Below, piece by piece: positions 7,595-28,884 of a stretch of 33,916 bases of DNA. Both the position numbers and the translations under genes were made by a program. The first letter of the stretch is position 1. The number at the start of each line of letters is the position of its first letter. The notes beneath the pieces are model-generated. The model searched no databases, was not told the DNA's origin, and was given only the letters and a program-made list of their open reading frames with translations. The DNA is from an uncultured Roseobacter sp. (GTDB lineage Bacteria > Pseudomonadota > Alphaproteobacteria > Rhodobacterales > Rhodobacteraceae), in contig NZ_CANLYL010000022.1 in assembly GCF_947495275.1 (NCBI RefSeq), forward strand, positions 1-33,916, written 5' to 3'.

Positions 7595-7789
7595 GTGTAC
7601 TCACTCCTGAAGACTTTTGCCCTCAAAGACATCCTCGAACGCGAATTTCTCCCTTTTGTCATCGCTCTGATTGTCGCGCAGCTTTATTTCAAATGGGGCA
7701 GTTTTGCGCTTGAGCTGGTGGGGTTCATTTTCACTTGGTTGGTACTTGGATTTGTCGCGCAGCTGGTTTTGCGCGCCTTTCGAAAATAG
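7595..7789 (+). CDS. Small hydrophobic membrane protein, unknown function
   Basis: A 64-residue protein (GTG start at 7595) with a polar start containing KDILEREF and two hydrophobic segments, roughly LPFVIALIVAQLYF and LELVGFIFTWLVLGFVAQLVL, then a basic end (RAFRK). That is the layout of a small two-helix inner-membrane protein with positively charged cytoplasmic tail. The GTG is preferred to a TTG at 7562 because GGGGCC lies about ten bases ahead of it and the N-terminus then looks like a normal cytoplasmic segment. It sits 102 bp upstream of the large operon on the same strand and might be co-transcribed with it. I do not recognise the family. Confidence 0.65.
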   Translation: MYSLLKTFALKDILEREFLPFVIALIVAQLYFKWGSFALELVGFIFTWLVLGFVAQLVLRAFRK

Positions 7790-7891: not shown

Positions 7892-8770
7892 ATGGTGCGA
7901 CGTCCGACACGGCGATCCGGTTTAGGATTGGGGTCAGCCAGCAGCGGCACCCGGCTTCTCGATATTGGCAACATGGTTGGACTGTCGCGGACGGACAAGA
8001 AACGACTTGAACGCATTCTGCGCGAGGCAGAACGGTTGCGGGGACTGCGCCCCGAAGACCTCATCATCGTACGAGACCCTGAACCTGCGCCTGATATTCT
8101 TGGGGATTTTGTCGGCAAGCTCGTCAAACCAAAAGATATGTCAGAAATTCTGGGATCGGTCATCCAGTCCCCGAACCTGCCGAAAGCCAACCAGTTGGAT
8201 TTTGTCACGTCATCCATGATGGATATCTTGCGCAAGAAGGTCCCGCAATCGCTCCCCAAAACGCCGGTGCCCATTGGGAAGAAAGGGGCCGACCTTCCCG
8301 TGACGTCAAAAGGGCTGACACAATTGTTGCAACTGGCGGCAGTGCGTCTTTCCGAAGAGCAAGAAAGCGTGGTGTGGGATGACGGCATCAATCAACTCTT
8401 GGTGCACGCGTCGCGGATGAGGGCGACGCTCACCGACGGAATGGTCCGGGTCGACATCCCTGTCGAAGCGGATGGGTTGCGCGCGACAATGCAAATTCCC
8501 TTTGCGGTTGGAGGTGAGGAACGCCTGACGGGTCTGGTCATGGCGACCACGGACCGGCCGGCAGGGAATGCTTTGGTTGCGCAGGTTTGGGGCTCTTCGC
8601 TGATTGCCCTTGCCCATGGTGCCCTGATCTCCGCCAGTGAAAGCCTCGCCGGAGCTTCCGGGCGTGATCCGCAAAATCGCCGTCTGATCCCACGGGCACT
8701 GGTGGCGCGCCGCGGCATGCTTGTGGTCGAAAGCCAGGCCCGCTTCAACTTCAAGGAGGCTCGTCCATGA
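7892..8770 (+). CDS. Protein of unknown function, first gene of the DUF6603-type operon
   Basis: The product is 292 residues long and matches no family I can name. It has a short basic N-terminus (VRRPTRRSG), then a charged helical segment (SRTDKKRLERILREAERLRG, about 32-51), a linker with several prolines, and a mixed alpha/beta second half of 150 residues. The second half contains a central strand-rich part (VRVDIPVEADGLRATMQIPF). No signal peptide or membrane helix is seen. ATG at 7892 is preceded by GAGGGAGAG; a TTG at 7877 would overlap that site and is rejected. The stop overlaps the start of the giant gene (ATGA), so the two are translated together. A role as scaffold, adaptor or assembly factor for the giant protein would fit, but that is inference from position alone. 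Confidence 0.8.
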   Translation: MVRRPTRRSGLGLGSASSGTRLLDIGNMVGLSRTDKKRLERILREAERLRGLRPEDLIIVRDPEPAPDILGDFVGKLVKPKDMSEILGSVIQSPNLPKANQLDFVTSSMMDILRKKVPQSLPKTPVPIGKKGADLPVTSKGLTQLLQLAAVRLSEEQESVVWDDGINQLLVHASRMRATLTDGMVRVDIPVEADGLRATMQIPFAVGGEERLTGLVMATTDRPAGNALVAQVWGSSLIALAHGALISASESLAGASGRDPQNRRLIPRALVARRGMLVVESQARFNFKEARP

Positions 8771-11700
8771 ACGCGTTTTCGCCGGATGAATTTGGCGATA
8801 CCGCAGATCTGCTGCGCGCCTTGGGGCTGGTCAAGCCGGACGGTACTTTCAACAGCGACTGGTTGGGTGATCCGCAAAGATATCTCAAAACGATGCTGGC
8901 CGATGATTTGCAGCGTCAGGCGCTGTTTGATTTCGTCGCCACTCTGCGCGGCGGTGAAACCGAACGCGACGCTGAGAACCGGTTGTGGATAGAGCTGTTC
9001 GCCGAGGATCTGGGCGGCGGCGCGAAAATCACCTTTTTCGTTGTTGCCGATGATACGCCCACGAGCGAGGTTCATCTCTTTCTGGGCGCGCGGTTCACCA
9101 CCAGCGCGCCGCTGGCGGCAAGCCAGTCGTCTTTGATGTTCCCTCTTTTTCGGGCAGGAAAAGGCACCAGCTCTCCTTCATCGCCCGAGTTGATTGCCCA
9201 GCCGGGCGGTTTTATCGCTGTCACGAGTGAAGTGACGATTGCCGATACGCCAGCCCCCCCCGGTGATGCGGGGCTACAGGCTGTTGGTCTGCGCCTGCTC
9301 GTGCCAACACATGACGCTGATGGTGACCCACAAGTCGGTCTGACATTACGCGGATTGCAATTGCCGGGCCAATCCACGGGCCGTGATCTGGTACTCTCGC
9401 TAACCGATCCAGACGGGCTGCGTGACGCAGGCATCGAACTTATCATCGGGTTGATACAAGCACAGGTGGGCGGTACGGCGGGCGCGCAAATCCTGGCTTT
9501 TGCCAAGTTGATTGGCCTTGCTGACGATCCCACCATACCGGCGCTGCCGATCGAGGATATCTTCAACCGTGGTATTGATGCCCTGGGCGACTGGCTTGCG
9601 CAGGTTCTGGGCGATGTACCGCGTCGCACAGCCTGGTTGCAAGCACTCGCCGATCTATTGGCCAATGGCGCGACAGTGCAGAACAACGATGTGGTGTTAC
9701 CCATCGGAACAGCGGCCATACGCCTGGGCCTGCTGGCAGAGGCGGGGGCATCGGGAAAGCCCGTTATCACTGTCTCAGCGGCCTTCGGATTGCAGGACGG
9801 TATCGCCGAAGTTGGCCTGCGCGCGGATTTGGTCAAACTCGATCTGGGGTCGGGGACAGCCACAGCTGTTCCGAAGCTACGGGCCGAAGCGCGTTTTGAT
9901 TTATCATCTCTCGTCATGCCGAATGTGTCTGTGGACACGTTTGTTGTCGGATTTGGGCTCAACGAGGCGCGCCGTCCCGTTTTGGTCATCGAACTGCTGA
10001 ACGCCGTGTTGTTCAATACCGCGCACCCGCGGCTCGATCTGACAAACCCGGACGCGCTTGCGGCCACCGCAGCGCAGGCCATTACCGACGCTTTGGCAGA
10101 GGTTCTGGGCAATCTGGGGCCAGCGGGCGATCTGATCGCCGTAGCCCTCGGCTGGCAGGCTCCGCCCGGGGCCAGCGCAGGGTATCCGCAGATTGATTTG
10201 CTGGAATTCCTGGGCGATCCGCTTGGATTGCTGCAATCTCATTGGAATACCGTTTTTACGGCTCACGCGGCAGATGTTCCGGCGGTTTTGACCAGCCTGC
10301 GCCATCTTTTGACCGGCGACGCAACGCCCGGTGCCGTCACGGGGGAGGGGACAGATGCCAGCCCTTGGGTTTTGCCACTTGAGGCCGGGTTGCATGTCGC
10401 CCTTTGGCGTGATGCCTCCGCGCGGCTGGTCATTGGTCTGGTGTTTTTGCGGCAAGTGGATACGCTGGGAGAACGCTGCACCGTCATTGAAACCCGAATA
10501 CGGGTCGGCATCGTAGCGCTCGACCTTGGTACCGGTGCCGCAGGTTTTCTGCCCGAAATTCTGTTGCGCGGTCTTGCGCGCGCGCGCGGCGGCGGGCGGC
10601 TTAGCACCGATCAGGGAGCTTTGCGCCTTGAAGTTGATCACCTTGCCCTGCGTGCCCGCTGGATCCCCGAGACCGGTTTGAAATTTGGTTATGAGGCTCC
10701 CAATCCGGGTGTTTCAATCGATGGATTGCAAATCCCCATTGATGTCCCCGATCTCTCGGGTGGGATTGACACGGCCATTGCGTCTATCACGGCCGCGCAA
10801 TGGGAAGCCCTCGAAAGGCTGGCGGCGCTTCTGGCCGAGCAACTCAATCAGGCTTGGTTGAACGATCTGATCGAGGCGCTGGGCTGGCGTCGTCAAGCCC
10901 CTGTTCTGGGCAGCCCGCCCAAGCATCGTCTGGCATTGGCTGATCTGGTTGCGGACGCCCAATCTGCGCTGCGGCAGTGGTTTGCGCGGTTGTTGTCAGA
11001 CGCTGAAAGCCAATTGCAGGATCAGTTGCAACCGCTGGCGCGGTTTCTGTCGCATTTGCCCGGGACCGGTCTGCATGTCACAGGGCGTGGAACGATAGCC
11101 GACCCTTGGCGGATTGCTCTTTTTGCCAGCGTCGATGCACCAGCCCTCGCGGTCTGGCGACAACCGGACGCGCCACTTCCTGTCCCCAGCGCGCTGCAGT
11201 CACTGCCGTTGCGACGTTGGAGACCGGGGGCCGATGGCCTGGAGCCCGGGCAACTGGCACAGGCCATTCTGAGCGAGTTTCCCGAGGTTGTCGGCCCGAA
11301 TGGTGCCGGTCTCGCACAGAATGCTATCAGTGCGGGACTGCTGGGGCTTTCGCGCCTGTGGCAAGGCAGCGATGGGCAAGTGCGCCCGCCCAGGATTGCC
11401 CTGCCAGGCTCCACCGTTCATGTGATCCAGAACCAGACCGCTGAAGCGCTGTTTGAGAGTATCGACCTTACGCCCATCATCGGTTCCACACCGCCGACGG
11501 AAATTCATGTACGTGTCCTGCGGTCCGGTGCCACGATTGACCCGGCATTGGACATGGCCCGCGTTCTCGACATGCGTGAGGCGGGACGTGATCCGCTCGC
11601 CTTTACGCCGCTGCCATCGGAATCGGGTATCTGGCACATCCTTCTGGCCCCGCGCGCAGACGCCGGATTGCCTATCGGCGATCCCGATGGCGTGGCCGGC

Positions 11701-14700
11701 CAGGTTGCGCGTTTGCGCCACGGCTTGTCGCTCATCGCAAGCCAGGCGGATGCGACCGTCGTTGCGGATCGCGCGGCCGGTCATGCGTGCTGGATGGCCT
11801 TGAACGAAATGGGCAGTGGACTTGACCGCCTGGTGACAATCGGCCTGCCGGTTGTCGCAGATCAGGTGCCGTCGCCCCTGCCAGCTGCCGAAGCCGAGAT
11901 GCTGCGTCGCTTGTCCGAATTCATGCCCGATCCGGACGTGGCGGTGCCGGATGACGATGATCTGGCCCGCGCCCGAAATCTGCTGGAAATCTATCTGGGT
12001 GCCCGCGCCGCCCCTTTGGCGGAGATGGCTTTGCCATCGGGTTGGACCGGCACGAAGCGCGCCGATCTTTCGCTTTATCTGGTCTATGGGGTTCTGGACA
12101 GCGCCACGATCAGACGCGCATTGAGCGCGACGGCCGCTGCGGGCCTGAGCCTCAATGCGCAAGCAAGAGATACGCGCCGGGCCCTGCAGAAAATCACCTC
12201 TGCTTCGATGGGGGCCTGGGTGCCGTTGTCCAGTGCGCCCGGAGCGTCCGGCCTGATCATCGAGGGTCATGCGCTCGCGGAAATCGTCGGTGTGAACCTC
12301 GATTTCAGCTCCGGTATTCCATCCGCCCAACCGCGTCAGGCCCATGCCATCTGCGTCGCGATGGAATTGCGCCATTCCAATGGCTGGCTGATTGGCGGGC
12401 CACAAGCTGCACCCCTGCCACTGGATCTCGAGCTGAGGTCCGTAGAAATCGACCTGAGTGTCACACTTGGCGGGGGCGATGCTGACCTCAACCGGGCACA
12501 GATTGTTTTGCACGGCGTCCGGATTCACGACAGAAGTTTCCCGCGCCTGGTACTCTCGCCCGATCTGGCACCTGGTGATCTGGGGATGGACGGGCTGGCC
12601 GCACCAACCACACCCGAAATTCAGGATTTGCTTTCGCAGGTCTTCGGTCAATTGTCGGGCAGCGCTGACACGGCCTTGGCCAAAGTTGCCGACGCTCTCC
12701 GGGCACTTGGCATTCTCGGGCCGGGGGATGGTTTTGATCCATTATCCTTGTCCAACTGGCTTGATGACCCCGCCGCGCGCCTGCGTGATGTCCTCGCAAA
12801 TCCCGCGATGCGCAACCAGCTGATGACCCTTATCGGCGATGCGACGTCATCTGTCAGCGGGGTCAATTTCGACCCGGTTGCACGTCAGGTCTCACTGAGC
12901 CTCTCAGGGGCGACAGGAATGCCCGTCTTTACGGAATGGGCTGTTTCAGGATCGGTCGGAGCAACAGGTGTTACCGGGGCAACCTTGCGGCTTGGTGCTG
13001 AAACGGACACGCATCTCAACGTGCCGCTGACACCGTTTTCGGCGTCCCTGAACCTTGGGACGACCCATGCGGAGGCATTGGGCGGCATTCCACCCAGCGT
13101 ACCGCTCTGGCCCACGCCGGATTTGATACGCATCGGAAAAACCGCACTTCCGGCGCTTGCCGCAACGGGTCTGGCGCGCCTGCTCGACGAACTCAGGCAT
13201 GCGGATCTCGGTGCGCGCGGGGTTGTGGATGCGGCGTTGACCGGGCTTGGCTTGCTTGATCTGTCTGATCCTGAGGGTCGCGTCGTCATACCGCCGCTGA
13301 TGTTCATTGATCCCGGAACCTGGTTGCGGCAAGGCACCGTTCTTGGGGCGGTAGGCGGCAAAACTGTCCGTGCCGACCGCGTGATTGCCCTTATGGACGC
13401 GTTCAAACCGCTGGTTGGTTTGGCCGGAACCTCCGGTGTCTGGGAAATTGCTCCCGGATTGTCGCTGCGTGCCCGCGATGTCGGGGGCCTGGTGTTGGAT
13501 TTCGGCTTTGATCCGGCGCTCTTCATGCCCGGGGCGGATGTGGATTTTGGCGGCGCAGTGGGACTGAAAATTGATGCCAACGGGCGGGTCCTGCCCCATA
13601 TCGCGGTATCCGTTGGCCTGAGTGGGGGGCCGGTCGGCACACGGGCGGTACATCTCGCCGTTGATAGCGGGGCCGTGCGCCTTTTCCTGCGCGACAGCGC
13701 GGCGTCTGATCTGGAAATCTACCCCAATCCAGCAGGCATCGCGCAGCTTGCCACGGCGGGGATCACGGCGGCGTTGCCCGCAGCCCTTGACGCCATCGTC
13801 GCGACCAGCACGCCTGCCGGTGATCTGTTGGCAGATGTCGGCGATGCGCTCTTGCTGCGACAGGCGGGAAGCTTTGATGTCCCGGCGCTGAGTGCCTGGG
13901 TGAGCGATCCGGCAGGGACCCTCGAAGCCCGATGGCCTGCGCTGTTGACCTCGGGACTGGTACGTTTGGGGGCAGTCTTGCCGCCTGGTGTGGCTGTCTC
14001 CGCCACTGCCGGTGGCTTGCAGGTCGAGGTCGCCAACGCGGGCACCCCCGGCTCGACCGTTTCGGTGATCTTCAACACCAGCCCGGTTTGGGTCGAACTC
14101 GGCGCAAACATTGTCGGGGTGCCCTTTGCCAATGGCACCTCCGCAAGCCTGCGGTTTGACGCAACCGGGCTTGCCCGGATGCAAATGGGTATAGGCCCTG
14201 CCGACATTCCCTTGAGTGATGGGATCAGTCTGCGCCCTGTATTCGCATTGGATGTTGGTAGCGCTGTTGCCGCTCCCTTTGTGTCCACGGGTTTGGCCGT
14301 AGATGCGGCTAATACCCATGCGCTGGTCATGCGATATGATTTCAACAGCGAAACGTTTGATTTGGGGTTCGGATCGAACACGCCCGCGGAAATTGCCAGC
14401 GGGATCATGCATTTCGCGATCGATCTGCTGGGAACCTTCCTGCTGCAATTGGACGAGCTGCAAAGCGTTCTGGACGAGACCATCGGTGGCAGCGACATTC
14501 GCGGCGTTCTGACCGGCGTGTTGCTGAAACCCGGCGGGTCGTTGGACCCGGAGCTTTTCCGGGTTATCCGGAACCCTGGCGAGACATCGACACAACTGCT
14601 GGAAAGTAAGCGAGACCGCATCCTCACGCTGATCAATAACATTGCCGTGGCAGGTCCTTCCGTCAGCATCGGTGGTGAGCTCAACATCCGTTTTGAGTCT

Positions 14701-17700
14701 CTGGACGGGGTTCTGGGGCTCAAGCTTGAACTGCCCGGAAGACTGCCCATCGTCGAAGGCGACATCGCGCTATGGATCGAGAACGACAGCCGCTGGATCA
14801 TCGGCGGTCCTGCCGCTGGAATGTTCATCGGGATCATGAAGGAAACTGCCGGATCGTTCGATTTCAAACCGGTGCTTTCCGTGGACGGGGTTGGTTTGCG
14901 CGTGGGACGCACCAATGCGCCGCTTCTGGACAGCCCGATTGCCATCGGATCGGTCGCTTTGCATGTCTTTGCGCGCATTACCGAAGACGAATTGCTGGGC
15001 GGGGCTCAGGTGCAATTGTCCGAGCTTGCCGTTGCCGTGGGCGATGCCGGTGGGTCTGAGACGGGCGAGGAGGCCAATGAAGATGCCAACCCGGTTGCCG
15101 AAGGGATGCTGGCCGAAACCAATGATGGTGACGCCCCGCTTGCACCTTCTTTCAGCCCGGCCCTGTCGATCCAGACCCGCCCGTCGGCTGATGGCGGCGG
15201 GGTTGCCTTCAGATTTGTCGCAGGCGACGGCGAAGGACCCTGGTGGCTGCCCGTCCGTAGCCAGTTTGGTCCCATCTACATCGACCAGATCGGGCTGGGT
15301 ACGCAGGTTTCCGCAGATACGTTGCAATCCATCTCTCTGTTGTTTGACGGCAATGTTTCGATCGCCGGTTTGCAGGCGGCGGTGGACGATCTGGAGTTGC
15401 GTTACCGGTTGGATCGAGGCGGCATATTCGATCCCAAATCCTGGGCGGTCGATCTGGCCGGGCTAGCCATTTCGGCCGACATGTCGGGCGTGGCTCTGGC
15501 GGGCGGGCTGCGCAAGTTCGGGGATGGCGCAAATGTAGAGTACATTGGCATGCTCACCGCGCGTTTTGCGACCTATGGCTTGTCCATTTATGGCGGTTAT
15601 GCCTCCATTGTTAACCCCGAGCGTTATGCGGCGTTCTTTGCATTTGGTGCCGTTCTTGGGCCCTTTGGCGGCCCGCCGGCCTTTTTCCTGACGGGCATCG
15701 GCGGCGGTTTTGGTATCAACAGGGGGATCAATCCTCCCGAAAGCCCCGGGGATTTCGACGACTTCGTCATGATCAACGCGCTTGATCCGGCCTTCGGGAC
15801 GCCGGACAACCTGATGGAATATATGGGGCAAGTGCGCGGGGCCTTCCCACCGACGCGCGGCAAATTCTGGTTCGCAGCGGGGATCAGTTTCACCTCATTT
15901 GCCCTGGTCGATGGCGTGGCCGTTATCGCGGTGGAATTTGGCCAAGGGTTCGAATTGTCCATTTTCGGGCTCGCGCGCATGGCATTGCCGCGTCCCGAGG
16001 CGGCCCTTGTGTCCATCGAACTTGGTCTGATTGCGCGTTTTTCCACCGAAGAAGGCGTGATCTGGATACAGGCGCAACTGACCGACAACTCCTGGCTTTT
16101 GCATGAAAGCGCGCGCCTGACCGGTGGTTTTGCCTATGTCAGCTGGTTCAAGGGCGACAAGGCCGGGCAGTTCGTTCTGACCCTCGGCGGCTATCACCCC
16201 AATTTCCACCGCGATGGTTACCCCGTCGTGCCGCGACTGGGTTTCAACTGGTCGGTCAGCAGCAATATTGTGATCAAGGCCGAAACCTATTTCGCGCTCA
16301 CGTCAGAAGCGATCATGGCAGGGGGGCTCTTTGAGGCCAGCGCCAAGTTCGGACCGGCTTTCGCCCATGTAAGTTTTGGCGGTAACGCCATCGTCTATTT
16401 CGATCCTTTCAACTACGAGGCCGACGCCCATGCGCGTGTCTCCGCCGGTATCCGCATCAAGACATGGTTCGGCACGATCAAGCTGTCGTTCTCCCTTGGC
16501 GCCTATATCGAAGTCCGCGGTCCGAGGTTCCATGGCACTGCGCGGATCGAAGTTGGCCCGATCGACATTCGTGTCCGGTTTGGCAACAGCTCGAAGATTC
16601 CCGGTCAACTGATCGCCTGGTCTGCCTTTGCTGAAAAGTATCTGGAACTGGCATCAAACGAACGCGCCCGCGCACTCAGCGGTATTTCCGGCCGGGGGGC
16701 CATTCCACCTGCCGGCAGCGATGGCGATGAACCCGGTACCGCGGATGGCACCGCGGCGCATCCGTTTGACGTCATGAGTGAGTTTGAGTTGTCATTTACC
16801 AGCACGATTCCTCTGACACGGATCGACTGCGACGGCTTCCTGCCAGCCATGGGGACAGCGCCCAATCTTGGCATCGCACCATCAGGTAAAACCGTTACGT
16901 CCTCGACGTTGAACATGCGGCTGACGCGGGATTTTGGCGGCCCCGCTTCGCTGAATCATCCTGCACAGATCAAAGCGACGGCCCGGCGTACTGGGAAATT
17001 CCCGATTGGTGTCTGGGGGCGGCCTGCCGAGACCAAGAAACTCCCCAAGGGCGATGTTATTTCGGCGGCCGAGGGCATTGATTTCAAATTCGTCGCTGCC
17101 ATGGTTGGTCGTATTCCCGAAGCCTCAACGGGCGGGGTCGCCTTCGATCAGGTCGAGCATGATGTGCGCAAACCACTGCCCCTGCGTGCGGCGGGTACGA
17201 TCCGGGCCAGTCTTGTCCGCGAGGCACAAAAGCAGCGCGCGCTGCTGAGCACGATGGACGCGCGGGATATGCCCGCGATTGCAACCGACTGGCATGGCGA
17301 AGATCGTGCGCCCACGGCGCGTCGTTCCTGGGCGCGGGAGCGGGCCGTTCCGATGCGGGTTGGTCTTTTGTCCGAACGTATCATCGGCACCGCCGCACCG
17401 GGGCGAAAGCGCCCTATGCCGAGACCCGGTCAGACAACCGTTACGGTAGGATTTGGCAAGGCAAAACTGCGCGGCTTGATGGCGCAGCCCACACGCGCGG
17501 GGCGCAAAGCATGGCTTTCAGCACAAACGAAAGTTACCGCAGCGACGCAGGCCGCGAGCCAGCTCAAACGGATTGCCCCACCCCAACTGGCGGCCAATGC
17601 AACGCTTGGGCGGGCAGCACCGGTCCTGCTCAGGGCCCAAATCGGAGTTCCCAAGGCCGCCAAGACACTTGTCGCGCCGGCCGCCGTTCCGGAAACCTTG

Positions 17701-18606: not shown

Positions 18607-18615
18607 GATAGGATT

Positions 18616-20733
18616 ATGGTCGCCCGAGGAAAATTCTTCTTATACGACAGCATCACACCGGCGCTGACAGCGGGCAGCTATACGCTCAGCTCAGACCTTG
18701 ATGTGCAGGCCAGCGACGGCACACCCCTGCCGGTTGCACCGCTGAATACACATTTCAATGTCACGGCGCCCCGTCTGAAACTGCCACCCGATCAGGCGCT
18801 GATGACATTCCCGCCTGCCAATTCCGAAGGCGCATATGAATCGCGCCTGCCACAGATTGTTCTGAAAAAGCGCACCCTGCCCTGGGACCGAAGTGCAGCG
18901 AACCCCGGTGCAGTCTTTCATGGCCAGACGGTTCAGACCACGACGCCTTGGTTGGCGCTGGTTATCATTGCCGAAGGCGAGGGGCAGATTGTTCACGACC
19001 AGCCCTGGCAGGAATGCGTCACCCCGGGCAAGACGCTGGACGGCAACAAGGATGTGCCGCGTGCAAGCTACCTGTCGGTGCCGCAGTCGACGGTCACGGC
19101 GGTTTTCCCGACCGTGGATGATCTGACGTTGCTGACCCATGTGCGTGAGGTCAATCCCGATGATACCGAAAACGCGATGGGGGATGATGACGGCTTTCTG
19201 GCCGTGGTGATCGGCAACAGGATGCCGCAATACGATACGCAGAATTGCAGACCGAAGGCCTACACGGCTTGTCTGATCAATCTCGAAGGGCAGTTGGACG
19301 CTTTGCCACCCCCGGCACCTCCCCGGAATTTCTTTGAGATGTCGGATCTCTTTTTGAATGAGGAACTGGCCGGCTACGCGGCATCGGTCTCTTCCGGTAC
19401 GGCAGTGCCGCAAAAGGTCAGTACGGATGCGCGCCTGCTGGATCTTGGCGATAGCGATGCCATGGCCGACGCCGTGCGACGCGGCGAGGTTGTCTTTCAC
19501 AATGGCAACCTTGTGGATCGGGCCGGTGCCACCCCTGACGGGTTGAACGTGCTTGGCCGGATGGATTCGATCTCTTTTCTCGAAAGTGATTTTTCCGCGG
19601 TAAGGGCAACCACAAGCGCGGCAACCCATGATGAGGTGCGCCGGGTCGAGGGAAGCTTCTCCGCCTTCAACTTCCCGCTCGAAATTCTGTTCCCGGAGAA
19701 GTTCTTCCGCTTCCCGGTGCTCACCTCCTGGCGTTTCACCTGTTCGGGCGCGGGGAGCTTCCGGCAACTGATGACCTCGCTTGATGTCGGGCTGCTGGGA
19801 ACCGTCTCGGAAGGGGGATACGCGCGCGCCTTGCCCAAGTGTGCGCCCGACGTGCAGGGCGATGATCCGGGCAGCGATCCGGTCACGCAGTTGCCCCTTG
19901 AAACGGCTGAAACCGGTCACGTTGGACTGCCGCACCTGACCCGTACGGGCGAGAACGCCAATGCGTGGTATCGCGGCCCGTTTTCGCCGCATCAGCTGTT
20001 ACGCAACCCCTTGGCGCAGGAAGCGCAATTCCCGGTGCTGGCACATGTCAGTGATCATTTGCGGATGATGACACCCGATGGGCGCGAGGATGTCTCTCTG
20101 GCCGTGGCTTTCGAGACCGGGCGCTTACTGGCAATGTCGCAACCGTCCTTCGTGGCGGCGATGCAGCGCTGGCGCGCGGAGCAATTCGGCGCAAGCCGGG
20201 CACGGTTGGTCCAACAGACTGTGTTCCTGGAAAGCCGTGATATCCTCGGTCGCCTGCTGGATGATTTCGATGAAGACAGGATTCTCGACGCGATCAACAA
20301 AGGCCTCGTCTCTGAGCTCATGGAGGGCGGGATCATCCGCGCCATGGAACTGCGGCGTGAAAGGGTTATTTCCACGCCCGTCGAATTGGTCAATCCCGGG
20401 ACCCAAGCGGTGGGACTGGCCGGGGACTTCAATGCTTTTCTGGCGGATGGGCTCGGGATGGACCGCGCGCTTGTCAATCAGATCGCAGCACAACCTGACA
20501 ACCTTGATACGTTTGCCGCTTTGCAGGCTTCTGAACCGGGCCGTGTGAGCAGCGCGGAGATTGACCTCAACGGCCAGGTCGAAGGCCAATTGGGAGACGT
20601 TCTGACGACGGGTGTTTTCGATCTCGCGAAAACGGCGATCGGAACCGACCGGATCAGGGAAGATACCATACGGGACCTGGATGAATTCTCGTCGTTCGAC
20701 AGCTTCGTCAAAGACCGTTTTGAGAGGAACTGA
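18616..20733 (+). CDS. 705-residue protein of unknown function, third gene of the DUF6603-type operon
   Basis: The start at 18616 follows the giant gene by nine bases, with AGGATAGGA as ribosome site. The protein opens with strands (GKFFLYDSITPALTAGSYTL) that look like an immunoglobulin- or jelly-roll-like domain. It then has a striking run, VTAPRLKLPPD, MTFPPANSEGAY, LPQIVLKKRTLPWDR and TTPWLALVIIAEGEG (49-123). I remember similar strings in unannotated proteins from other bacteria that sit beside DUF6603 proteins. A later helical part (about 493-530) reads VSLAVAFETGRLLAMSQPSF then MQRWRAEQFGASRARLV. No catalytic motif, signal peptide or membrane segment is seen. It is probably a structural or adaptor component of the same assembly as its neighbours; that is inferred only from operon structure. 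Confidence 0.8.
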   Translation: MVARGKFFLYDSITPALTAGSYTLSSDLDVQASDGTPLPVAPLNTHFNVTAPRLKLPPDQALMTFPPANSEGAYESRLPQIVLKKRTLPWDRSAANPGAVFHGQTVQTTTPWLALVIIAEGEGQIVHDQPWQECVTPGKTLDGNKDVPRASYLSVPQSTVTAVFPTVDDLTLLTHVREVNPDDTENAMGDDDGFLAVVIGNRMPQYDTQNCRPKAYTACLINLEGQLDALPPPAPPRNFFEMSDLFLNEELAGYAASVSSGTAVPQKVSTDARLLDLGDSDAMADAVRRGEVVFHNGNLVDRAGATPDGLNVLGRMDSISFLESDFSAVRATTSAATHDEVRRVEGSFSAFNFPLEILFPEKFFRFPVLTSWRFTCSGAGSFRQLMTSLDVGLLGTVSEGGYARALPKCAPDVQGDDPGSDPVTQLPLETAETGHVGLPHLTRTGENANAWYRGPFSPHQLLRNPLAQEAQFPVLAHVSDHLRMMTPDGREDVSLAVAFETGRLLAMSQPSFVAAMQRWRAEQFGASRARLVQQTVFLESRDILGRLLDDFDEDRILDAINKGLVSELMEGGIIRAMELRRERVISTPVELVNPGTQAVGLAGDFNAFLADGLGMDRALVNQIAAQPDNLDTFAALQASEPGRVSSAEIDLNGQVEGQLGDVLTTGVFDLAKTAIGTDRIREDTIRDLDEFSSFDSFVKDRFERN

Positions 20734-20735
20734 CC

Positions 20736-21740
20736 ATGGCTTTGTCTCATAATATGACATTGCAGTTGATTGCCGACGCCGTGACAGAAGGTGCCGAAGC
20801 GACGGTTGCGCCTCCTGAAATCCTGTCTTTTCTGGCCAAGCTGAGGATGCTTGACGGGGTCCCTTTCAACAATTTGGTTCCAGACACTGAGCTGTTGCCA
20901 AACGAATCCATCCGATTCTTTTACCTCGACCGCGCCTGGACAGATGCGTTGGTTCAGGGTGCGTTAAGTGTTGCCACGACCAACACCATTGAACGCGGCC
21001 AGCTGGAACGATTTTACCCGCAGATCGAGGGTGAAGTGGATGATGCGGAGCGCCGTTACCGCGCACCGGGTGGCGAGCCGCTGCTGCGCGGGACCGCGGG
21101 CGTCGTAACCGGTTTTTTGCTGCGCTCCGCTGCTGTGGCGGGGTGGCCGGGGTTGCACGTGCGCGCCTACAAGGATGAGCCGGGACCGAATGATACCGAT
21201 ATCCACCCGGAATCTCACCCCAGCCGGATCAAGCTCTTGCGTCTTGAAAGGCTTTCCCCGGCTGTTCTGCTGGCCATGTTCGATGGCATTCCCAAAGTGC
21301 TGCACATTGAAGAGCCGCGTCAGGGCATTCAGTTTGGGGTCAACCTCAAAACCTCGGCACGCGGGCGCACCACTGCGACGGTTCCAGCCCGTAACGTCCG
21401 AAACGGTAACTATGTTGACAAGAATGGCGCCGAACCAAAGGACCCGACGCAAGCGCAGCAAATCCCTGTACGTTTCCGACTGGGCGCGGCGGGTGTTCTT
21501 GATCTGAGCAACACCGCGCGTGCATTTGCCTCTGCAAACACGACAAACATGAGCGCCGGTCCGGGTGATCCTGTTGACGGGGCCGAGTTCGCATTGCAGA
21601 TGATCCGGTTTCCGTTTCGACAGGTGTTTGCGCAGGATGCGGGAACAACCGCCACTCAGAACGACGCCTTCAAGCCAACGGTTGCGAAGGTTGCCGAGCG
21701 CTACACCCAGGTTCTCAAACAGAAACTCGGGGAGATCTGA
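20736..21740 (+). CDS. 334-residue protein of unknown function, fourth gene of the DUF6603-type operon
   Basis: ATG at 20736 lies two bases after the previous stop, with GAGAGGA as ribosome site inside that gene's end. Notable segments are LDGVPFNNLVPDTELLPNES (39-58) leading into IRFFYLDRAWTDALVQGALS (59-78), VVTGFLLRSAAVAGWPGLHV (123-142), and RLERLSPAVLLAMFDGIPKV (169-188) followed by LHIEEPRQGIQFGV (189-202). These look like conserved family motifs: a hydrophobic core with short strands and exposed Trp-Pro-Gly turns. I recognise the pattern as occurring next to similar large proteins elsewhere but know no function. There is no signal peptide, membrane helix or nucleotide-binding motif. 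The C-terminal residues 205-250 are polar and likely flexible. Confidence 0.8.
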   Translation: MALSHNMTLQLIADAVTEGAEATVAPPEILSFLAKLRMLDGVPFNNLVPDTELLPNESIRFFYLDRAWTDALVQGALSVATTNTIERGQLERFYPQIEGEVDDAERRYRAPGGEPLLRGTAGVVTGFLLRSAAVAGWPGLHVRAYKDEPGPNDTDIHPESHPSRIKLLRLERLSPAVLLAMFDGIPKVLHIEEPRQGIQFGVNLKTSARGRTTATVPARNVRNGNYVDKNGAEPKDPTQAQQIPVRFRLGAAGVLDLSNTARAFASANTTNMSAGPGDPVDGAEFALQMIRFPFRQVFAQDAGTTATQNDAFKPTVAKVAERYTQVLKQKLGEI

Positions 21741-21742
21741 AC

Positions 21743-24700
21743 ATGGCGGATGCGATCAAACCGGAACTGATGAATGCGCTGCTGGGCAGCGGCAACTGGT
21801 CACTGGCCACAAATGTCGGCGACCGCGTCGTGGATCAGCGGTTCCGGTTTCCAGAGCCTGCCCAGGCACCAAACCCTGCCTTGCTGGTGCCCGTCGATGT
21901 GCAGGCGCTATATGTTCCGGCCTCCCACAGTGAACGATACGTGCGCCTGCCGCTTGAGCTGGGCGATGGCGCAGATGCCGACAAGACAACGGCACCCTTT
22001 TCGACGCCCCGGGCACGGGCAAAAGGGGTACATCTTCATTGGGCGATGCCCGACGGTTTGCTGCGCGGCGAGATGGTTGATGACGATGATGAACCGGTGC
22101 AGATGCCGGTTCTGCCCAACCGCTGGCTGGTCGTGCGAATGTCAGGGCGGCGCAACCGCGCCCGTGTGGATCTGAGATCCTGGCTTATTGAGGCGGATAC
22201 GGGACGCGTCTTTGATCTGCCTAAATACCCCAATGCGCCCACGGCATCTCTTGCACAGCAAATGACACCGGAAACACTGACCGGGATCATTGGCGGTTCG
22301 CCAAACTGGACCGCATCTTATGACGCAACGCTCAATCGGTTTGCTTTCCACGATCAGCTGGATGGGGTGCAGCCGACACAGGTCCTGACACGACAGGCAA
22401 GTTATGTCGTGATCGGCTGGTGGTCGGACCGGGCACATGATCCACTGGGCGGGGTTTTCTCGCCTTATTCAGTCGCGCGCAAAATCGACCGGTTGGACTG
22501 GACCGCGTCATCAGCCCCTTTCATAGGGGAATGGAAATCACCAAAGCGCCCCTTAAGCTCAGAGTCGGATGACAAAGGTACCGACCTGAGGACCGCTCTG
22601 AAACTCAGTACCTCCCAGATGGGACTGCTTTCGGGTTTTAAAGAGTATAGCTTCGACGAGGTGACATTGGCGCGTCAGCGCTTGCGTTACGAAACCGTAC
22701 TGCATGGCGCTGTCTATGGTGTCCCGATCACCGGTGGTGTTGGCAAAGACGCGGCCCCCCGGGCGTCACAGATTGAACTGTCGATGGCGCCAACATTAGA
22801 GCGACTGATCGCGGCACAAGCCGCCAGCGGGCTGGGCGTGCGTTCGGGCCCCAGAAAGGAATATTTTGAGAGCTTGCTGACGGGCGTTGCGAACATGTCC
22901 CTGATGAATATCGCAAGCCGCGATGGCATTGTTCAGCTGGATGAGGCGGAACATGCGGACGGGTTTGAGGCGTTCCAGGGCCCCGAGACCTATGAAGATG
23001 TCATCATCTCGCGTCAGCAGTCCGCATTCAAAGCCGGGCGACCGCTGCGAACCAAGGCTGCGAAGCAGAAAACCAAGGCCGCTCCATTGGCAGATGTCAT
23101 CTGGAATGGTCGCAAACGCGGAAAACACAAATCCGACAAGGACAGCCTGCGCCGCCGGGCCGAAGATATCAAATACGGGCGCAAAGGGTCGCGGATTGAT
23201 GACGCCCCCAAAACCCGGCGACTCAAACGACCGGGACCGCGCTATCACCGGGCAACGTCGCCCGTTGTCGGGTTGCGCAACTACGGTCGTTCGCAACGGT
23301 TTCTGGCAGATGGCCGGTTTCACGATGAAGGCAAGCTGATCTGTCGATGGTCAGATGAAATGGCCACGAAGTATGGTGAGGGATATCAGGCGAGTACCTA
23401 CGTGCCCCTTCTGGTTAATCGGTTTGTGCCCGCCATAACCAATCGCATCCTCCAGAATTCGTTCATGGGGGATCTGTACATGATGCCTTGGATTTTTGAG
23501 GCGATCCGCGCGGTTGTGCGCGGCGATCAGGTGGGACCAACCCAAAACCGTCTGCGCGGAGAGATGGCGCTGCGGTATTCGCAAGATGGTGTCTACGATG
23601 GCATCGTGCCGATTGCGCGCGGCGATGAGACTACCCCCTACAGCGCGAAGGTTGCCGTCAGTGACGCCGTGCGCCGCTTTTCACTGGCAGAGGGACGTGA
23701 CCCAAGCCCGGTTGCCGTCACGAGTTGGGTTCAGCCCTGGTCACCGGTCTGGCTGGAATGGGAAGTGGAGCTTGTGCCGGGGCAGGGGTTTGCCGGCTGG
23801 GATCTGGGCAGGATCGATTTCGAAGGCGCCCCGGTGCCGCAAGGGAAAAAAGTCAAACTACAGGGCCGCTCAGCGATCACCTCGGGACTGGCGCGGACCT
23901 ATCAGGCGGTGATCGACACTTATCTGATCGCTGAAAATCAGCGCGATACAGACGACCAGGGGGAAATCAACGAAGGACATGAAGGGACATTGGCGGACCT
24001 CTCGGCATTCCTGAAGAATGCGGATCTTGGATCTGTCACGCTGGACCGGATCAATGATTTGTGGCTGGCGGTTGATGCTGGCCCCGATGGTCAGGTCAAG
24101 GCGGCGCCCGATGGTGTGGCAGATGCTCTTGCAGCCGCAGGTCTGCCCAACCTGATTGCGGAGGGTGCGCTTCGGCTAACCCGGGCCCGCATCGTTGACA
24201 GCTTTGGCCGCTTCCGCGATCTGCCCACCAGCAAGATCATCATGCCAACGGCCCTGGCGCTAAAGGATGAGAACGGCGCTCCAACACTGGCCATGCCACC
24301 GCGGCTCTCGCTCCCGGCGCGGTTGATGTGGCGGTTCGTTGATCCTGCCGATACCTCGCCCTCTCCGGTTGAGGGGCGTCTGGATCAGGCCAACCCCGGC
24401 AATATGGTGAACCCGATCTCGGGATATATATTGCCCGATTTCATCGACGAATCCGTCGAGTTTTTTGATCAGGATGGTCAGCCTCTCGGCGAGGTGCTGC
24501 ATGATCCCGTCACAGGCGGCCTGATCTGGGAAAGCGGGGTAGGTCGGGATGGCCCCGCCTCCGGATCGCCGATGACTGGCCTGCCCGAGACTGCGCGTTT
24601 GTGCGGGCAGATTGCGCAGGGGATGATCGAGACCGACATTCGGCAACGTAATTCGGAACAGACCGCCGATAAGGAAAGCCCGCTGAGTGCATTCCTGCGT

Positions 24701-25537
24701 GCAGTCGATACCACTAGCTGGAGTGTGGACAGTTCGCTGGCCTCTGCGAGTGCGACGATTGCAGGGCTCGTCGGGCGCCCGATTGCCGTGGTGACGACGC
24801 AACTCTGGCTGGATATCCCGCAGGATCTCGCCAAAACCGGTGCCTTTGGCGAAACCGCCGATGATATACGCGATCACCTTATCCGCGAGGCTGTGTTTGA
24901 TGTTGTGAAATCACAGGAATTCACAGTGCGGCTGGGCGAACTGGCCAAGGGGCACGACGGGCTTTATGGATTTTTCATTGGCGATGATTACGCGCTTTTC
25001 CATCTGATCGAAAAAGAGGTCACACAGGCCGCGCGGGTCAGCCGTCAGGGCGGCGGTTTCCGCGCGGCCCTTGGCGGTGTTTCTGCACAGGTTGGCGGAA
25101 ACTTCCTGCCGGAGCCCAGCCCATTGGATGCCCCTTACATCGGAGCGGGCGAGCCGCTGGGCGTTCACGTGGGTCAAAAGCTGCGTCTGACATTGCTGAT
25201 GCACCCTTCGGCCCGGGTCCATGCCACAACAGGTTTCCTGCCGCGTAAGTCCCTGGAGTTGCTGAACGATTGGGTTTCACCGGGACTGGGGCATGTGGCA
25301 CCTTCGGCCCGTATTGGTCCGGTGCTGATCGATCCTGACAAGGTGAGACTACCGAAGATCGCCGCATTCGGGGCCAATCAGACATGGACCAGACGGAACA
25401 CACCGATAACATGGCGCGATGACCCGATCCTGGGCGCAACCCAGGCTGCCGTTCTGCCGTCGGGCCGGGTGACCGTTGAAGAAGGATACATCCGTATCAC
25501 GCCCGAGGGCGATCCGACGATCGGGGAGGACGACTGA
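21743..25537 (+). CDS. 1264-residue protein of unknown function, fifth gene of the DUF6603-type operon
   Basis: ATG at 21743 follows the previous stop by two bases, with GGGGAGA upstream. The N-terminal third is strand-rich, with FRFPEPAQAPNPALLVPVDV (about 35-54), GVHLHWAMPDGLLRGE (95-110), LPNRWLVVRMSGRRNRARVD and YVVIGWWSDRAHDPLGG. A very basic segment at about 431-500 (KQKTKAAPL, GRKRGKHKSDKDSLRRRAED, KTRRLKRPGPRYHR) interrupts it and is probably exposed. The second half is again strand-rich with several Trp-containing motifs (TSWVQPWSPVWLEWEVELVP). No enzyme motif, signal peptide or membrane helix is visible. It overlaps the next start by one base (TGATG). A structural or ligand-binding role in the same complex is inferred from context only. 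Confidence 0.8.
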   Translation: MADAIKPELMNALLGSGNWSLATNVGDRVVDQRFRFPEPAQAPNPALLVPVDVQALYVPASHSERYVRLPLELGDGADADKTTAPFSTPRARAKGVHLHWAMPDGLLRGEMVDDDDEPVQMPVLPNRWLVVRMSGRRNRARVDLRSWLIEADTGRVFDLPKYPNAPTASLAQQMTPETLTGIIGGSPNWTASYDATLNRFAFHDQLDGVQPTQVLTRQASYVVIGWWSDRAHDPLGGVFSPYSVARKIDRLDWTASSAPFIGEWKSPKRPLSSESDDKGTDLRTALKLSTSQMGLLSGFKEYSFDEVTLARQRLRYETVLHGAVYGVPITGGVGKDAAPRASQIELSMAPTLERLIAAQAASGLGVRSGPRKEYFESLLTGVANMSLMNIASRDGIVQLDEAEHADGFEAFQGPETYEDVIISRQQSAFKAGRPLRTKAAKQKTKAAPLADVIWNGRKRGKHKSDKDSLRRRAEDIKYGRKGSRIDDAPKTRRLKRPGPRYHRATSPVVGLRNYGRSQRFLADGRFHDEGKLICRWSDEMATKYGEGYQASTYVPLLVNRFVPAITNRILQNSFMGDLYMMPWIFEAIRAVVRGDQVGPTQNRLRGEMALRYSQDGVYDGIVPIARGDETTPYSAKVAVSDAVRRFSLAEGRDPSPVAVTSWVQPWSPVWLEWEVELVPGQGFAGWDLGRIDFEGAPVPQGKKVKLQGRSAITSGLARTYQAVIDTYLIAENQRDTDDQGEINEGHEGTLADLSAFLKNADLGSVTLDRINDLWLAVDAGPDGQVKAAPDGVADALAAAGLPNLIAEGALRLTRARIVDSFGRFRDLPTSKIIMPTALALKDENGAPTLAMPPRLSLPARLMWRFVDPADTSPSPVEGRLDQANPGNMVNPISGYILPDFIDESVEFFDQDGQPLGEVLHDPVTGGLIWESGVGRDGPASGSPMTGLPETARLCGQIAQGMIETDIRQRNSEQTADKESPLSAFLRAVDTTSWSVDSSLASASATIAGLVGRPIAVVTTQLWLDIPQDLAKTGAFGETADDIRDHLIREAVFDVVKSQEFTVRLGELAKGHDGLYGFFIGDDYALFHLIEKEVTQAARVSRQGGGFRAALGGVSAQVGGNFLPEPSPLDAPYIGAGEPLGVHVGQKLRLTLLMHPSARVHATTGFLPRKSLELLNDWVSPGLGHVAPSARIGPVLIDPDKVRLPKIAAFGANQTWTRRNTPITWRDDPILGATQAAVLPSGRVTVEEGYIRITPEGDPTIGEDD

Positions 25538-28500
25538 TGTCCCGCTACGACTGGCCACGTGAGTTCACCAAATCGGCTGACCGACTGGCGCAACGCATGG
25601 AACGCGCTCTGCGGGACCGGAACATCGGCGTGCCACCGGGCGCTATGGGCGATCTGGACCTGTTGGACGATGTGATCCAGACCAATTTCGACGAAGACCG
25701 CATGTGGATGCCCCTGGGCCCGTCGATTATGACAAACGGGCAGGCAACCGGTGATCCGCAAGTCGCCGGTCGGGTGCGGGCGATCGCCGTCAGCCCCAAT
25801 GGTCAGCGTATCTACGTCGGCAGTGCTAACGGTGGCGTCTGGTACTCGTCGGACAGCGGTGCGTCGTGGACGCCACTGGGCAGTGCCAGCCTTGCCGCTT
25901 CGGCCAATCGCTCCGATCTGTCGCTGACGATCGGAGCGATTTGGGTGGAGTTTGGCAGCACCGGGGCGGTTGATGATCCGGCAAAAGACGTGGTCTACGT
26001 GGGGACCGGTGAAGGCCTTCCGCAATTTTCGGATACACCGGGTAGCAATATGGGCGGTATCGGCGTGCTGCGGCTGAATGGCACGTTGCCTGATGCGCTG
26101 GCGGCCCCGCTGCAAAACCCCTGGAAGCGTGAAGCCCGGAACCTGACGGGAGAGGGTATCTTTCGCATGGCGCGCGACCCTGCTGCTGCCGCAGCGCTCG
26201 ATGGCACGGCGACGCTTGTTGCGGCAACCTCGACCGGTCTGTGGTCCCGCAGCGGTGCTTTTTCCGAAGATGCGAATTGGCAGCGCGTTGAATTCACCAG
26301 CACCGCTTTTGCCAATCTGTCCGGCCAGCCACATTGCACGGATGTCATCTGGAATGACAAAGGCCTGTGGGTCACCTTGGTGGGGACGGGGGCCACGGAT
26401 GGGCTTTACCGGTCGCCCACCGGCCTGGCGGGATCATTTGCGCGCATCACGCTCACCAATCTGGAAACCGGGACGCGGCTGAGCCTTGGGCAAGCCGCGC
26501 ACGACACTGACCGGATGTATGTGCTGGGTAAGGTGCCTGATCCCATTAATCCTGGTACCAACTCGGGGCATGCCGCAGTGTGGCGGGTTGATCTGGCCAA
26601 CAGCGTGACGGTTGCGCCTCCCGTCCAGAATGTGCCCATGGGCTTGTTCGTGTCATCGGTCGCACCCGATAACGCAGGCAACCTTATCAACAACACTGAC
26701 GATCAATCCGCCTACGATCAGGCCATCTGCGTGCGTCAGGTTGGCACAAACGATGTGGTGACCGTTGGTGGATCGCTGGAGGACAATGGTGAATGGGACG
26801 CGGCGATATTCGATCTCACTATCACCGGCGGAGCAGCTGCCCCAACCACTGATTTTGACCCCACCCGCCATACAACTGCCGTGACCGACCCGACCTTTAT
26901 CGGGGCTGGTATTCATCCGGATGTTCATGTCCTCATGCAGGCGGGTGCAAATCTTTGGGTAGGCTGCGATGGCGGCGTTTTTAGACGATCCGGCGGCACC
27001 GTCCGGGCGATGAATGCCGGGCTGAGCGTGGCTGAGCCGGGATATCTGGTCTCGCACCCCACGATAGATGGTCCGGTTCTGGCGGGCACACAGGACAACG
27101 GCGCGATCCAGCGTATTGGTGACACGGTCTGGAGCCTGCAGCGCAAAGGCGACGGTGGTGGATGCCTGTTCCATCCGACCAAACCCCACCAGAGGGTGAT
27201 GCAATTCATCAATGCGACATGGCAATTCGAACCCGCCAGCTTTTCACCCTGGGGCCCTGTGTTGCGATCCAATCCCGCACTGCCCACAGAGACGGCAGAA
27301 AACGGACGGTCCACATTTTATTCTCAAGGGGCCGCGGCACCGGCGACCAATGCGGGTGATGCCCGGATTTTCCTTGGTACCGACCGGATATGGTACTGCG
27401 CCAATTGGAACGACCCTTCGATCAACATGGCTTGGGTCACCATTCCAAGCATGACCGATGCGCATGCGGGAGGGGCACCTCTTCAGGACCAACTCACCGA
27501 GAACGGCAATTCCGATGCTGTCCTTGTCATCGAGGTGCTGCGCGAAGGCGATGCCGCTGATGGCTATGAGGGAATGGCGATCTTGGTCCTGTGCCAACGC
27601 ACGGTCCGGATTTTCCGTTTTGCGCGTCCGGCACCCGCGGCAGCGCAGGCCTGGACTGCCATTGCCCAATCCGTGGTCAGTGATCCCTCGACGGCGACAC
27701 GCCCGCGCAGTCACAAGCTGGGGGATGACATTCCCAATCCCTTTCTCACCTATCTGCCCGACCCCTGGCTCAGTGCCTGGACCGACGTGGCCGTTCACAA
27801 AAACGATGTTGCCGGGCAAGAAAGTTTTTATGTCGCGACCACGGGTCAACGGGGTGTTGGTGCAAGTGGAGAGGCCACCAGTGACCCTGTCCATGATACC
27901 TTGTGGTGGTACGATGGTCAGGGACGCTGGTACCCGACCGGATTGCGCAACACGCCGCTGGATGCAGCGGCGGGTACCGGTGGCTCGCCTGCGGCCGCGC
28001 ATTGTGTGATCGTCGATCGGGAAGCGCCCGACAATGTCTATGTGGGTAACCGCATCGGCGTCTGGCACGGGGTGATTGACCAGAGCGGCACGCATCCCAC
28101 CTGGACGTGGCGGCCGGCGATGGAAGGGCTGCCGCACACGATGGTTCAGGACCTGTCGATCTCCAGCACGGAGGCGGGTACCTTTCTGCGCGCGGCTCTT
28201 GTGTCACGCGGGGTCTGGGAGCGTGATATTTCACTCTTGCCTGTGTCGGTGGGGCGGACGTTTATTCGGGCAGTGCCTCACGATACCGGGCGCTCGATAC
28301 TGCCCGCCACACCGAAAAACCCCTTGGACGACAGCAACCTGGAACTGCATGAAAGCCCCGATCTGGTCATTCTGCCCACAGGGTCACACACCTGGGATCC
28401 GCTGTTGCCGAACGAGGCGGATCTGCTGGCGGCCCCGAAACAAAGGCGCTACGGAAAGAGGGTGCATGATGTCTTTGTCATGTTGCATCATCGGCACACG

Positions 28501-28884
28501 ACGTCTTTGGCCGGGGCGGATGCCAACATTGACGTCTTTTTCCAGAAAGACGCCCCGGCGGGGGATTTGCAGGGATTTGCGATTACGCCGGAGTGGCGCA
28601 CCTTTGTTCATGAAACGGTGCGGGGTAACGCGCCTCCCGCGGTGGCCGGTCTGTCGCATCTGGGGCGGTTTAATCCGGCCTTGCCGGTTGATGCCCGCAC
28701 GCCCCGCGCGGTAAAACTCTCTGTCAATCTCAACTACGCGGGTAGACGTGATCACGCGATGCTGATTGCAGTTGTGACCTCGCCCGGCAATGCGTTCTTG
28801 CTGGCGGGTCTGGCGCCGGGCAACCTCAAATCCGTGGTGCGGCGGTCACATCAGATCGCTGTGCGAAAATTTGCACGGGTCTAG
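25537..28884 (+). CDS. Beta-propeller (BNR/sialidase-like repeat) protein, last gene of the DUF6603-type operon
   Basis: The 1115-residue product carries repeats of the propeller type found in sialidase-like, sortilin-like and photosystem-assembly proteins. Residues about 79-115 read GRVRAIAVSPNGQRIYVGSA then NGGVWYSSDSGASWTPLG, the classic Asp-box layout SxDxGxxW. Further blades are visible near 471-560 (NLWVGCDGGVFRRSGG, GPVLAGTQDNGAIQRIGDTV) and 834-898 (VYVGNRIGVWHGV, SRGVWERD). Such propellers bind partners or glycans; catalytic residues of true sialidases (arginine triad) are not evident. A C-terminal domain of about 215 residues (HDVFVMLHHRHTTSLAG, FVHETVRGNAPPAV) follows. No signal peptide is present. 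It is translationally coupled to the previous gene (TGATG). Its tag overlaps the convergent channel gene by four bases. Confidence 0.8.
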   Translation: MSRYDWPREFTKSADRLAQRMERALRDRNIGVPPGAMGDLDLLDDVIQTNFDEDRMWMPLGPSIMTNGQATGDPQVAGRVRAIAVSPNGQRIYVGSANGGVWYSSDSGASWTPLGSASLAASANRSDLSLTIGAIWVEFGSTGAVDDPAKDVVYVGTGEGLPQFSDTPGSNMGGIGVLRLNGTLPDALAAPLQNPWKREARNLTGEGIFRMARDPAAAAALDGTATLVAATSTGLWSRSGAFSEDANWQRVEFTSTAFANLSGQPHCTDVIWNDKGLWVTLVGTGATDGLYRSPTGLAGSFARITLTNLETGTRLSLGQAAHDTDRMYVLGKVPDPINPGTNSGHAAVWRVDLANSVTVAPPVQNVPMGLFVSSVAPDNAGNLINNTDDQSAYDQAICVRQVGTNDVVTVGGSLEDNGEWDAAIFDLTITGGAAAPTTDFDPTRHTTAVTDPTFIGAGIHPDVHVLMQAGANLWVGCDGGVFRRSGGTVRAMNAGLSVAEPGYLVSHPTIDGPVLAGTQDNGAIQRIGDTVWSLQRKGDGGGCLFHPTKPHQRVMQFINATWQFEPASFSPWGPVLRSNPALPTETAENGRSTFYSQGAAAPATNAGDARIFLGTDRIWYCANWNDPSINMAWVTIPSMTDAHAGGAPLQDQLTENGNSDAVLVIEVLREGDAADGYEGMAILVLCQRTVRIFRFARPAPAAAQAWTAIAQSVVSDPSTATRPRSHKLGDDIPNPFLTYLPDPWLSAWTDVAVHKNDVAGQESFYVATTGQRGVGASGEATSDPVHDTLWWYDGQGRWYPTGLRNTPLDAAAGTGGSPAAAHCVIVDREAPDNVYVGNRIGVWHGVIDQSGTHPTWTWRPAMEGLPHTMVQDLSISSTEAGTFLRAALVSRGVWERDISLLPVSVGRTFIRAVPHDTGRSILPATPKNPLDDSNLELHESPDLVILPTGSHTWDPLLPNEADLLAAPKQRRYGKRVHDVFVMLHHRHTTSLAGADANIDVFFQKDAPAGDLQGFAITPEWRTFVHETVRGNAPPAVAGLSHLGRFNPALPVDARTPRAVKLSVNLNYAGRRDHAMLIAVVTSPGNAFLLAGLAPGNLKSVVRRSHQIAVRKFARV

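Follow-up and report, generated by a model that had tools for sequence, protein, structure and literature searches.

What is built by a run of co-directional genes that takes up about 21 kb of a bacterial genome, in which a single gene encodes 3279 residues and no component has a known function? The run lies on contig NZ_CANLYL010000022.1 of an uncultured Roseobacter sp., a stretch of 33,916 nt hereafter called the window. It spans positions 7892 to 28884 (genes g1 to g6) and is headed by a small gene, g0, at 7595 to 7789. Judged by sequence comparison across genomes, this seven-gene run is a genuine conserved system, in which the core is constant and the ends vary; that it represents a conserved, undescribed multi-protein system is strongly supported. 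It looks like a real, undescribed cellular machine and, since a locus of 21 kb is costly and keeps the same order in different phyla, it must do something selectable. The run is composed as follows.

7595 to 7789, forward strand: g0, 64 residues, GTG start, two predicted transmembrane helices; heads the gene run
7892 to 8770, forward strand: g1, 292 residues, no known domain (Pfam); at other loci of type I, relatives sit immediately 5' of g2
8767 to 18606, forward strand: g2, a giant of 3279 residues with degenerate repeats (first ~1800 residues), a DUF6603 core and a C-terminal tail
15256 to 16653, forward strand: DUF6603 core (Pfam PF20248) inside g2, residues 2164 to 2628
18616 to 20733, forward strand: g3, core protein of 705 residues, modelled as beta-rich in its first part and helical in its last
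20736 to 21740, forward strand: g4, core protein of 334 residues, fused with g3 in seven relatives
21743 to 25537, forward strand: g5, core protein of 1264 residues; an F5/8 type C domain occurs in one of 27 scanned relatives
25537 to 28884, forward strand: g6, 1115 residues, predicted beta-propeller (BNR/Asp-box-like), a dispensable end component

The genes are tightly joined. The frames of g1 and g2 overlap by 4 bp (ATGA) and those of g5 and g6 by 1 bp (TGATG), while 9 bp separate g2 from g3, and 2 bp each g3 from g4 and g4 from g5. The open frames thus bear out a preliminary description of this DNA, which had listed six co-directional genes of these sizes with tight junctions; it had missed the seventh, g0. 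It had also given each gene its own ribosome site. A purine-rich stretch does precede every start from g1 to g6, for example gggagagag (g1), aaggagg (g2) and ggggagg (g6), the one before g3 being weak.

The same description proposed profile searches and a comparison of gene neighbourhoods as a check on its claim of a conserved, undescribed system. Among the genomes sampled, 398 Pseudomonadota yielded nine with DUF6603, the window's among them, and 396 Actinomycetota yielded 12, one of them G455; four further genomes reached through g3 loci bring the total to 25. A scan of genome contigs with the g3 alignment gave 14 loci. The window or g3 had led to six of the 25 genomes (the window and G455 to G459); 19 were reached independently of both. 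In all 25, and so in 19 of these 19, the next gene after DUF6603 on its strand is of g3 type; for G458 and G459, the evidence for this adjacency is the g2 C-terminus with g3, seen on a different contig from the DUF6603 match. In 17 of the 25, which have a window-like g3 and form types I and II, the order continues with g4 and then g5; at least one of g3 to g5 was already seen there with un-iterated searches. The remaining eight, all Actinomycetota, constitute type III. Their link to g3 is weaker (hhalign probability 83–91%) and required iterated or type III profiles, G821 being matched by the type III profile only; no relation of their third protein to g5 was found.

As the survey profiles were iterated on the same loci, the E-values they gave are not independent evidence. 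Un-iterated phmmer searches with the six window proteins also find the neighbours in the same order, both in Actinomycetota and in Alpha- and Betaproteobacteria, and in hhalign the type II proteins align with g3, g4 and g5 at 100%. In L010 and L011, the upstream g2 end was detected with profiles only. In the reverse direction, all four Actinomycetota genomes with a g3 match (among the 396) carry DUF6603, in a search that missed the type III genomes. With the same genes in the same order in other phyla, chance is no explanation. One exception was met, a plasmid locus of Paenibacillus sonchi with g3-g4 and an interrupted g5, where DUF6603 is absent within 20 kb. This locus (L022:19335-24686) has an IS630 transposase gene upstream and looks like a partial or decaying copy.

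Two of the core proteins are also fused in places. The g3 search gave 1800 relatives, and g3 and g4 form a single protein in seven loci (L020 to L023, L050, L058 and L068) as well as in database protein P0047, there possibly with a frameshift; six of the fused proteins align with g4 at 100% probability in hhalign. Two further observations concern the g5 end of the core. In Embleya (L020:22222-26223), a g5 relative contains an insertion that resembles an F5/8 type C domain, a binding module. In G148 (L050:17178-19820), the protein downstream of g5 seems by eye to begin with a Sec signal peptide, which sets it apart from the core proteins.

Variation is found at both ends. An enzyme-like gene lies directly or nearly 5' of DUF6603 in five of eight type II loci (L048, L049, L058, L020 and L021) and three of eight type III loci (L061, L062 and L063); in the other type II loci (L023, L050 and L068), where upstream genes were scanned in part, none was recognised. 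Two are M64 peptidases that score above the cut-off of 26 bits, in L062 (77 bits) and L061 (48.9 bits), with the HExxH motif present as HELGH and HEIGH. The proteins of L048/L049, L058, L021 and L020 are metallo-beta-lactamase-like and possess an HxxxDH motif, calls that rest on Pfam scores just or well below cut-off or on a phmmer relation only. L063 encodes a PhoD-like protein at 23.6 bits, below the cut-off of 27. Upstream of the type II operon in L049, with a beta-ketoacyl synthase gene in between, there is a further M64-domain protein (L049:2-1606); it lacks HExxH, and its C-terminal part resembles propeller repeats by eye. In the window, the position of the 5' enzyme is occupied by g1.

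At the opposite end, the g6 profile matches 37 residues of PDB 3b7f, a BNR-repeat glycosyl hydrolase (6.6e-6); g6 has one clear Asp box, and its propeller fold is predicted from sequence. It follows g5 in eight of nine type I survey loci with enough DNA. Because the profile survey gave no g6 match in G088 or in any of the five type II survey loci, the propeller is taken to be dispensable.

The small protein g0 has hydropathy peaks of 1.67 and 2.35 (Kyte-Doolittle, 19 residues). Of the 13 type I loci examined, 8 have a relative upstream of g1, counting the window (phmmer, E 4.2e-8 or better): six from the window's own family and two from other proteobacteria, one being Schlegelella. None was found in the other five, the Kribbella, Rhizobacter, G088, G127 and G720 loci, and the Rhizobacter locus has a different small one-helix frame at this position. 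Against two relatives, differences at codon positions 1, 2 and 3 number 6, 1 and 24, and 18, 3 and 37, a bias that points to selection on the protein.

Do these genes belong to a system already described? Among the six larger genes, g2 alone passes a family cut-off, that of Pfam DUF6603, with 399.9 bits against 27 (2e-119). Pfam gives it merely as a family of unknown function, to which we now add constant gene partners and g0; a literature search found no paper naming DUF6603 or PF20248. The domain also occurs in fungi. Scans of the six genes against PHROGs, NCBIfam and PADLOC gave nothing near cut-off, only weak rows on g5 and g6 (E 0.0014–0.1), and sequence searches of the PDB returned noise apart from the BNR match of g6. 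A constant core with variable enzyme-like or binding modules recalls enzyme-carrying toxin complexes and contractile injection systems. As far as sequence tests go, a contractile injection system or phage tail was rejected, as Pfam and PHROGs matched none of the six genes to a tail, sheath or baseplate component or to an Rhs-type protein. No PHROGs match was better than E 0.0076, neither g3 nor DUF6603 was found in phage records, and g3 was not found in IMG/VR. Known anti-phage defence was likewise set aside, as PADLOC, read up to E 1, matched none of the six. The preliminary description had named homologues scattered singly, or clear matches to a phage tail or other known system, as evidence against its proposal; instead, the relatives co-occur in order and no such match appeared in the libraries searched.

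Self-comparison of the giant protein g2 with hhalign reveals degenerate internal repeats in its first ~1800 residues. We modelled residues 1500 to 2690 with AlphaFold2, at moderate confidence (predicted template modelling score 0.39). In this model, two-faced beta-strands run through the DUF6603 region as one long meander, and units of helix pairs with about 8–10 strands each can be discerned. The alternation of hydrophobicity between two faces over residues 2151 to 2628 stands at z = 5.4 versus shuffles, compared with -0.4 to 0.9 in g1 and g3 to g6; it is weak in the repeat half of g2.

Comparison with known folds yields loose likenesses. In Foldseek, apolipoprotein B100 accounts for four of the six matches below 1e-3, with TM-scores of 0.11 or less, and the likeness seen with Foldseek and VIA-align alike has low TM-scores. 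Common to both would be a long meander of two-faced strands within a giant protein; in contrast to apolipoprotein B100, g2 has operon partners, no recognised signal peptide and no sequence relation that was found. Large lipid transfer proteins are defined by an N-terminal vitellogenin-type lipid-transfer domain, which g2 does not show: scanned against Pfam up to E 1, it matches nothing but DUF6603. The model also resembles large membrane beta-barrels (OprD family, SlpA and the PapC usher), presumably 16- to 30-stranded, in an up-and-down meander over about 370 residues. The root-mean-square deviation is about 10 Å to most of them and 4.9 Å to PapC (243 residues aligned). Unlike these proteins, g2 has no recognised signal peptide, and the DUF6603 system also occurs in Actinomycetota.

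By hydropathy and by eye, no signal peptide was recognised on start-complete g2, g3 and g5 proteins or on aligned g4 and g6 proteins, which speaks against a porin and against Sec export. Taken with g0, this points either to a membrane-linked cytoplasmic assembly or to release by an unlinked route. Our preferred reading, to which we assign a probability of roughly 0.3, is a lipid- or membrane-binding complex, probably cytoplasmic and membrane-linked, with a giant amphipathic beta-sheet protein as its base. Within g2, the DUF6603 part would present a long hydrophobic face, with which it may bind lipid or membrane as a belt or groove. Proteins g3, g4 and g5 would be obligate partners capping or organising g2; their physical contact with it is proposed from the constant gene order, helped by the g3-g4 fusions. 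From its predicted helices, we infer that g0 ties the complex to the membrane, anchoring or assisting it there. Judging from their replacements in other versions, g1 and the g6 propeller may serve as exchangeable end modules for substrates or partners.

The run might then stand for an undescribed class of machine: a lipid-wrapping or membrane-inserting giant sheet that has three constant partners, is anchored to a membrane, carries exchangeable modules for enzyme activity and recognition, and has been transferred between phyla. Such a machine would in effect be a cytoplasm-assembled bacterial counterpart of apolipoprotein-like or bridge-like lipid carriers, a joint proposal that we put forward tentatively. 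If true, it would give bacteria a new kind of large lipid- or membrane-handling assembly. The locus also gives a Pfam domain without assigned function its place in a defined system, with partners that can be deleted, purified and imaged.

The swappable 5' genes also fit the main rival to this reading, a pore or translocation complex that inserts into a membrane and transports an enzyme or some other payload. Here the DUF6603 meander would form a large beta-barrel in the target membrane, the 5' gene would encode the payload, and the propeller or F5/8 type C domain would recognise the target. The 5' enzymes show no signal peptide by eye, and the modelled core does resemble large barrels. However, the deviation from most barrels is large, the window version has no recognisable enzyme, g1 being without a known domain, and none was recognised in 8 of the 16 type II and III loci, where upstream genes were partly scanned. 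Nor was a lysis, immunity or secretion gene recognised alongside, though no systematic search was made, and we consider such a pore unlikely. A closed hollow shell that holds a cargo enzyme until delivery or activation would account for the same pairing of a constant giant beta core with a swappable enzyme-like gene; it finds no support among the fold matches listed, no cargo is recognised in the window, and we regard it as very improbable.

The preliminary description inferred a structural particle, filament or binding complex in which the giant is the backbone and the propeller an end component. As a filament or particle, this assembly might lie outside the cell or on its surface, with the propeller at the tip, and be exported by a route that needs no classical signal. 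Size, the repeats of g2, the propeller, the F5/8 type C domain in one g5 and the apparent signal peptide on the L050 downstream protein agree with this idea. We find it doubtful, since core proteins show no recognised signal peptide, g6 is dispensable and no fibre is among the 50 fold matches listed. The repeats of g2, its modelled helix pairs with two-faced strands and the presence of a small membrane protein are also reminiscent of VPS13 and ATG2, with AsmA-like proteins as the bacterial parallel. These too are giant and repetitive; the helix-plus-meander units modelled in g2 and its possible hydrophobic groove would be further likenesses. A bridge-like lipid conduit of the repeating-beta-groove type would use the g2 units as its repeats and g0 as its anchor. 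PMC7613979 describes the repeating-beta-groove unit as a five-stranded meander with a helix or loop crossing back, as opposed to about 8–10 strands per unit in the g2 model. There is no sequence match, the two-face periodicity is weak in the repeat half, and we hold this conduit to be improbable. No VPS13, ATG2 or AsmA-type row is among the fold matches listed, which proves nothing.

The distribution of the operon is patchy. It was traced by g3 to 3 of 19 genomes of the window's genus (window included) and to 4 of 59 across all relatives sampled. The three carriers of the genus share one site, between GFO/IDH and MscS flanks, with some additional genes on its left side in the two others. The same flanks enclose other genes in G005 and G016; in G015, G002 and G007, the MscS gene is present but the operon is missing. 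In the g3 tree, the proteobacterial G127 groups with an Acidimicrobiia row (a metagenome bin) at support 99/100, and Aliiroseovarius is split into two separate clades; 7 of the tree's 20 inner branches lack resolution, and its type II rows are long. The placements of G127 and Aliiroseovarius suggest that the operon spread by horizontal transfer. Core relatives also reside on plasmids of Streptomyces clavuligerus and Embleya. Finally, P0082, a g3 protein named Gelidibacter (Bacteroidota), is very like Aliiroseovarius P0085, by contamination or recent transfer.

The neighbours in the window are ordinary genes. To the left lie MFS, metallo-beta-lactamase, ABM, isopropylmalate-dehydrogenase-like and GFO/IDH genes; to the right, an MscS channel gene convergent to g6, a Fer2/Sdh_cyt protein and a glyoxalase. 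The closest match of g2 is named Roseobacter sp. EG26, with 99% identity over the 1191 residues searched, so the two genomes are very near; PMC12352049 is reported to present this strain as an octocoral isolate.
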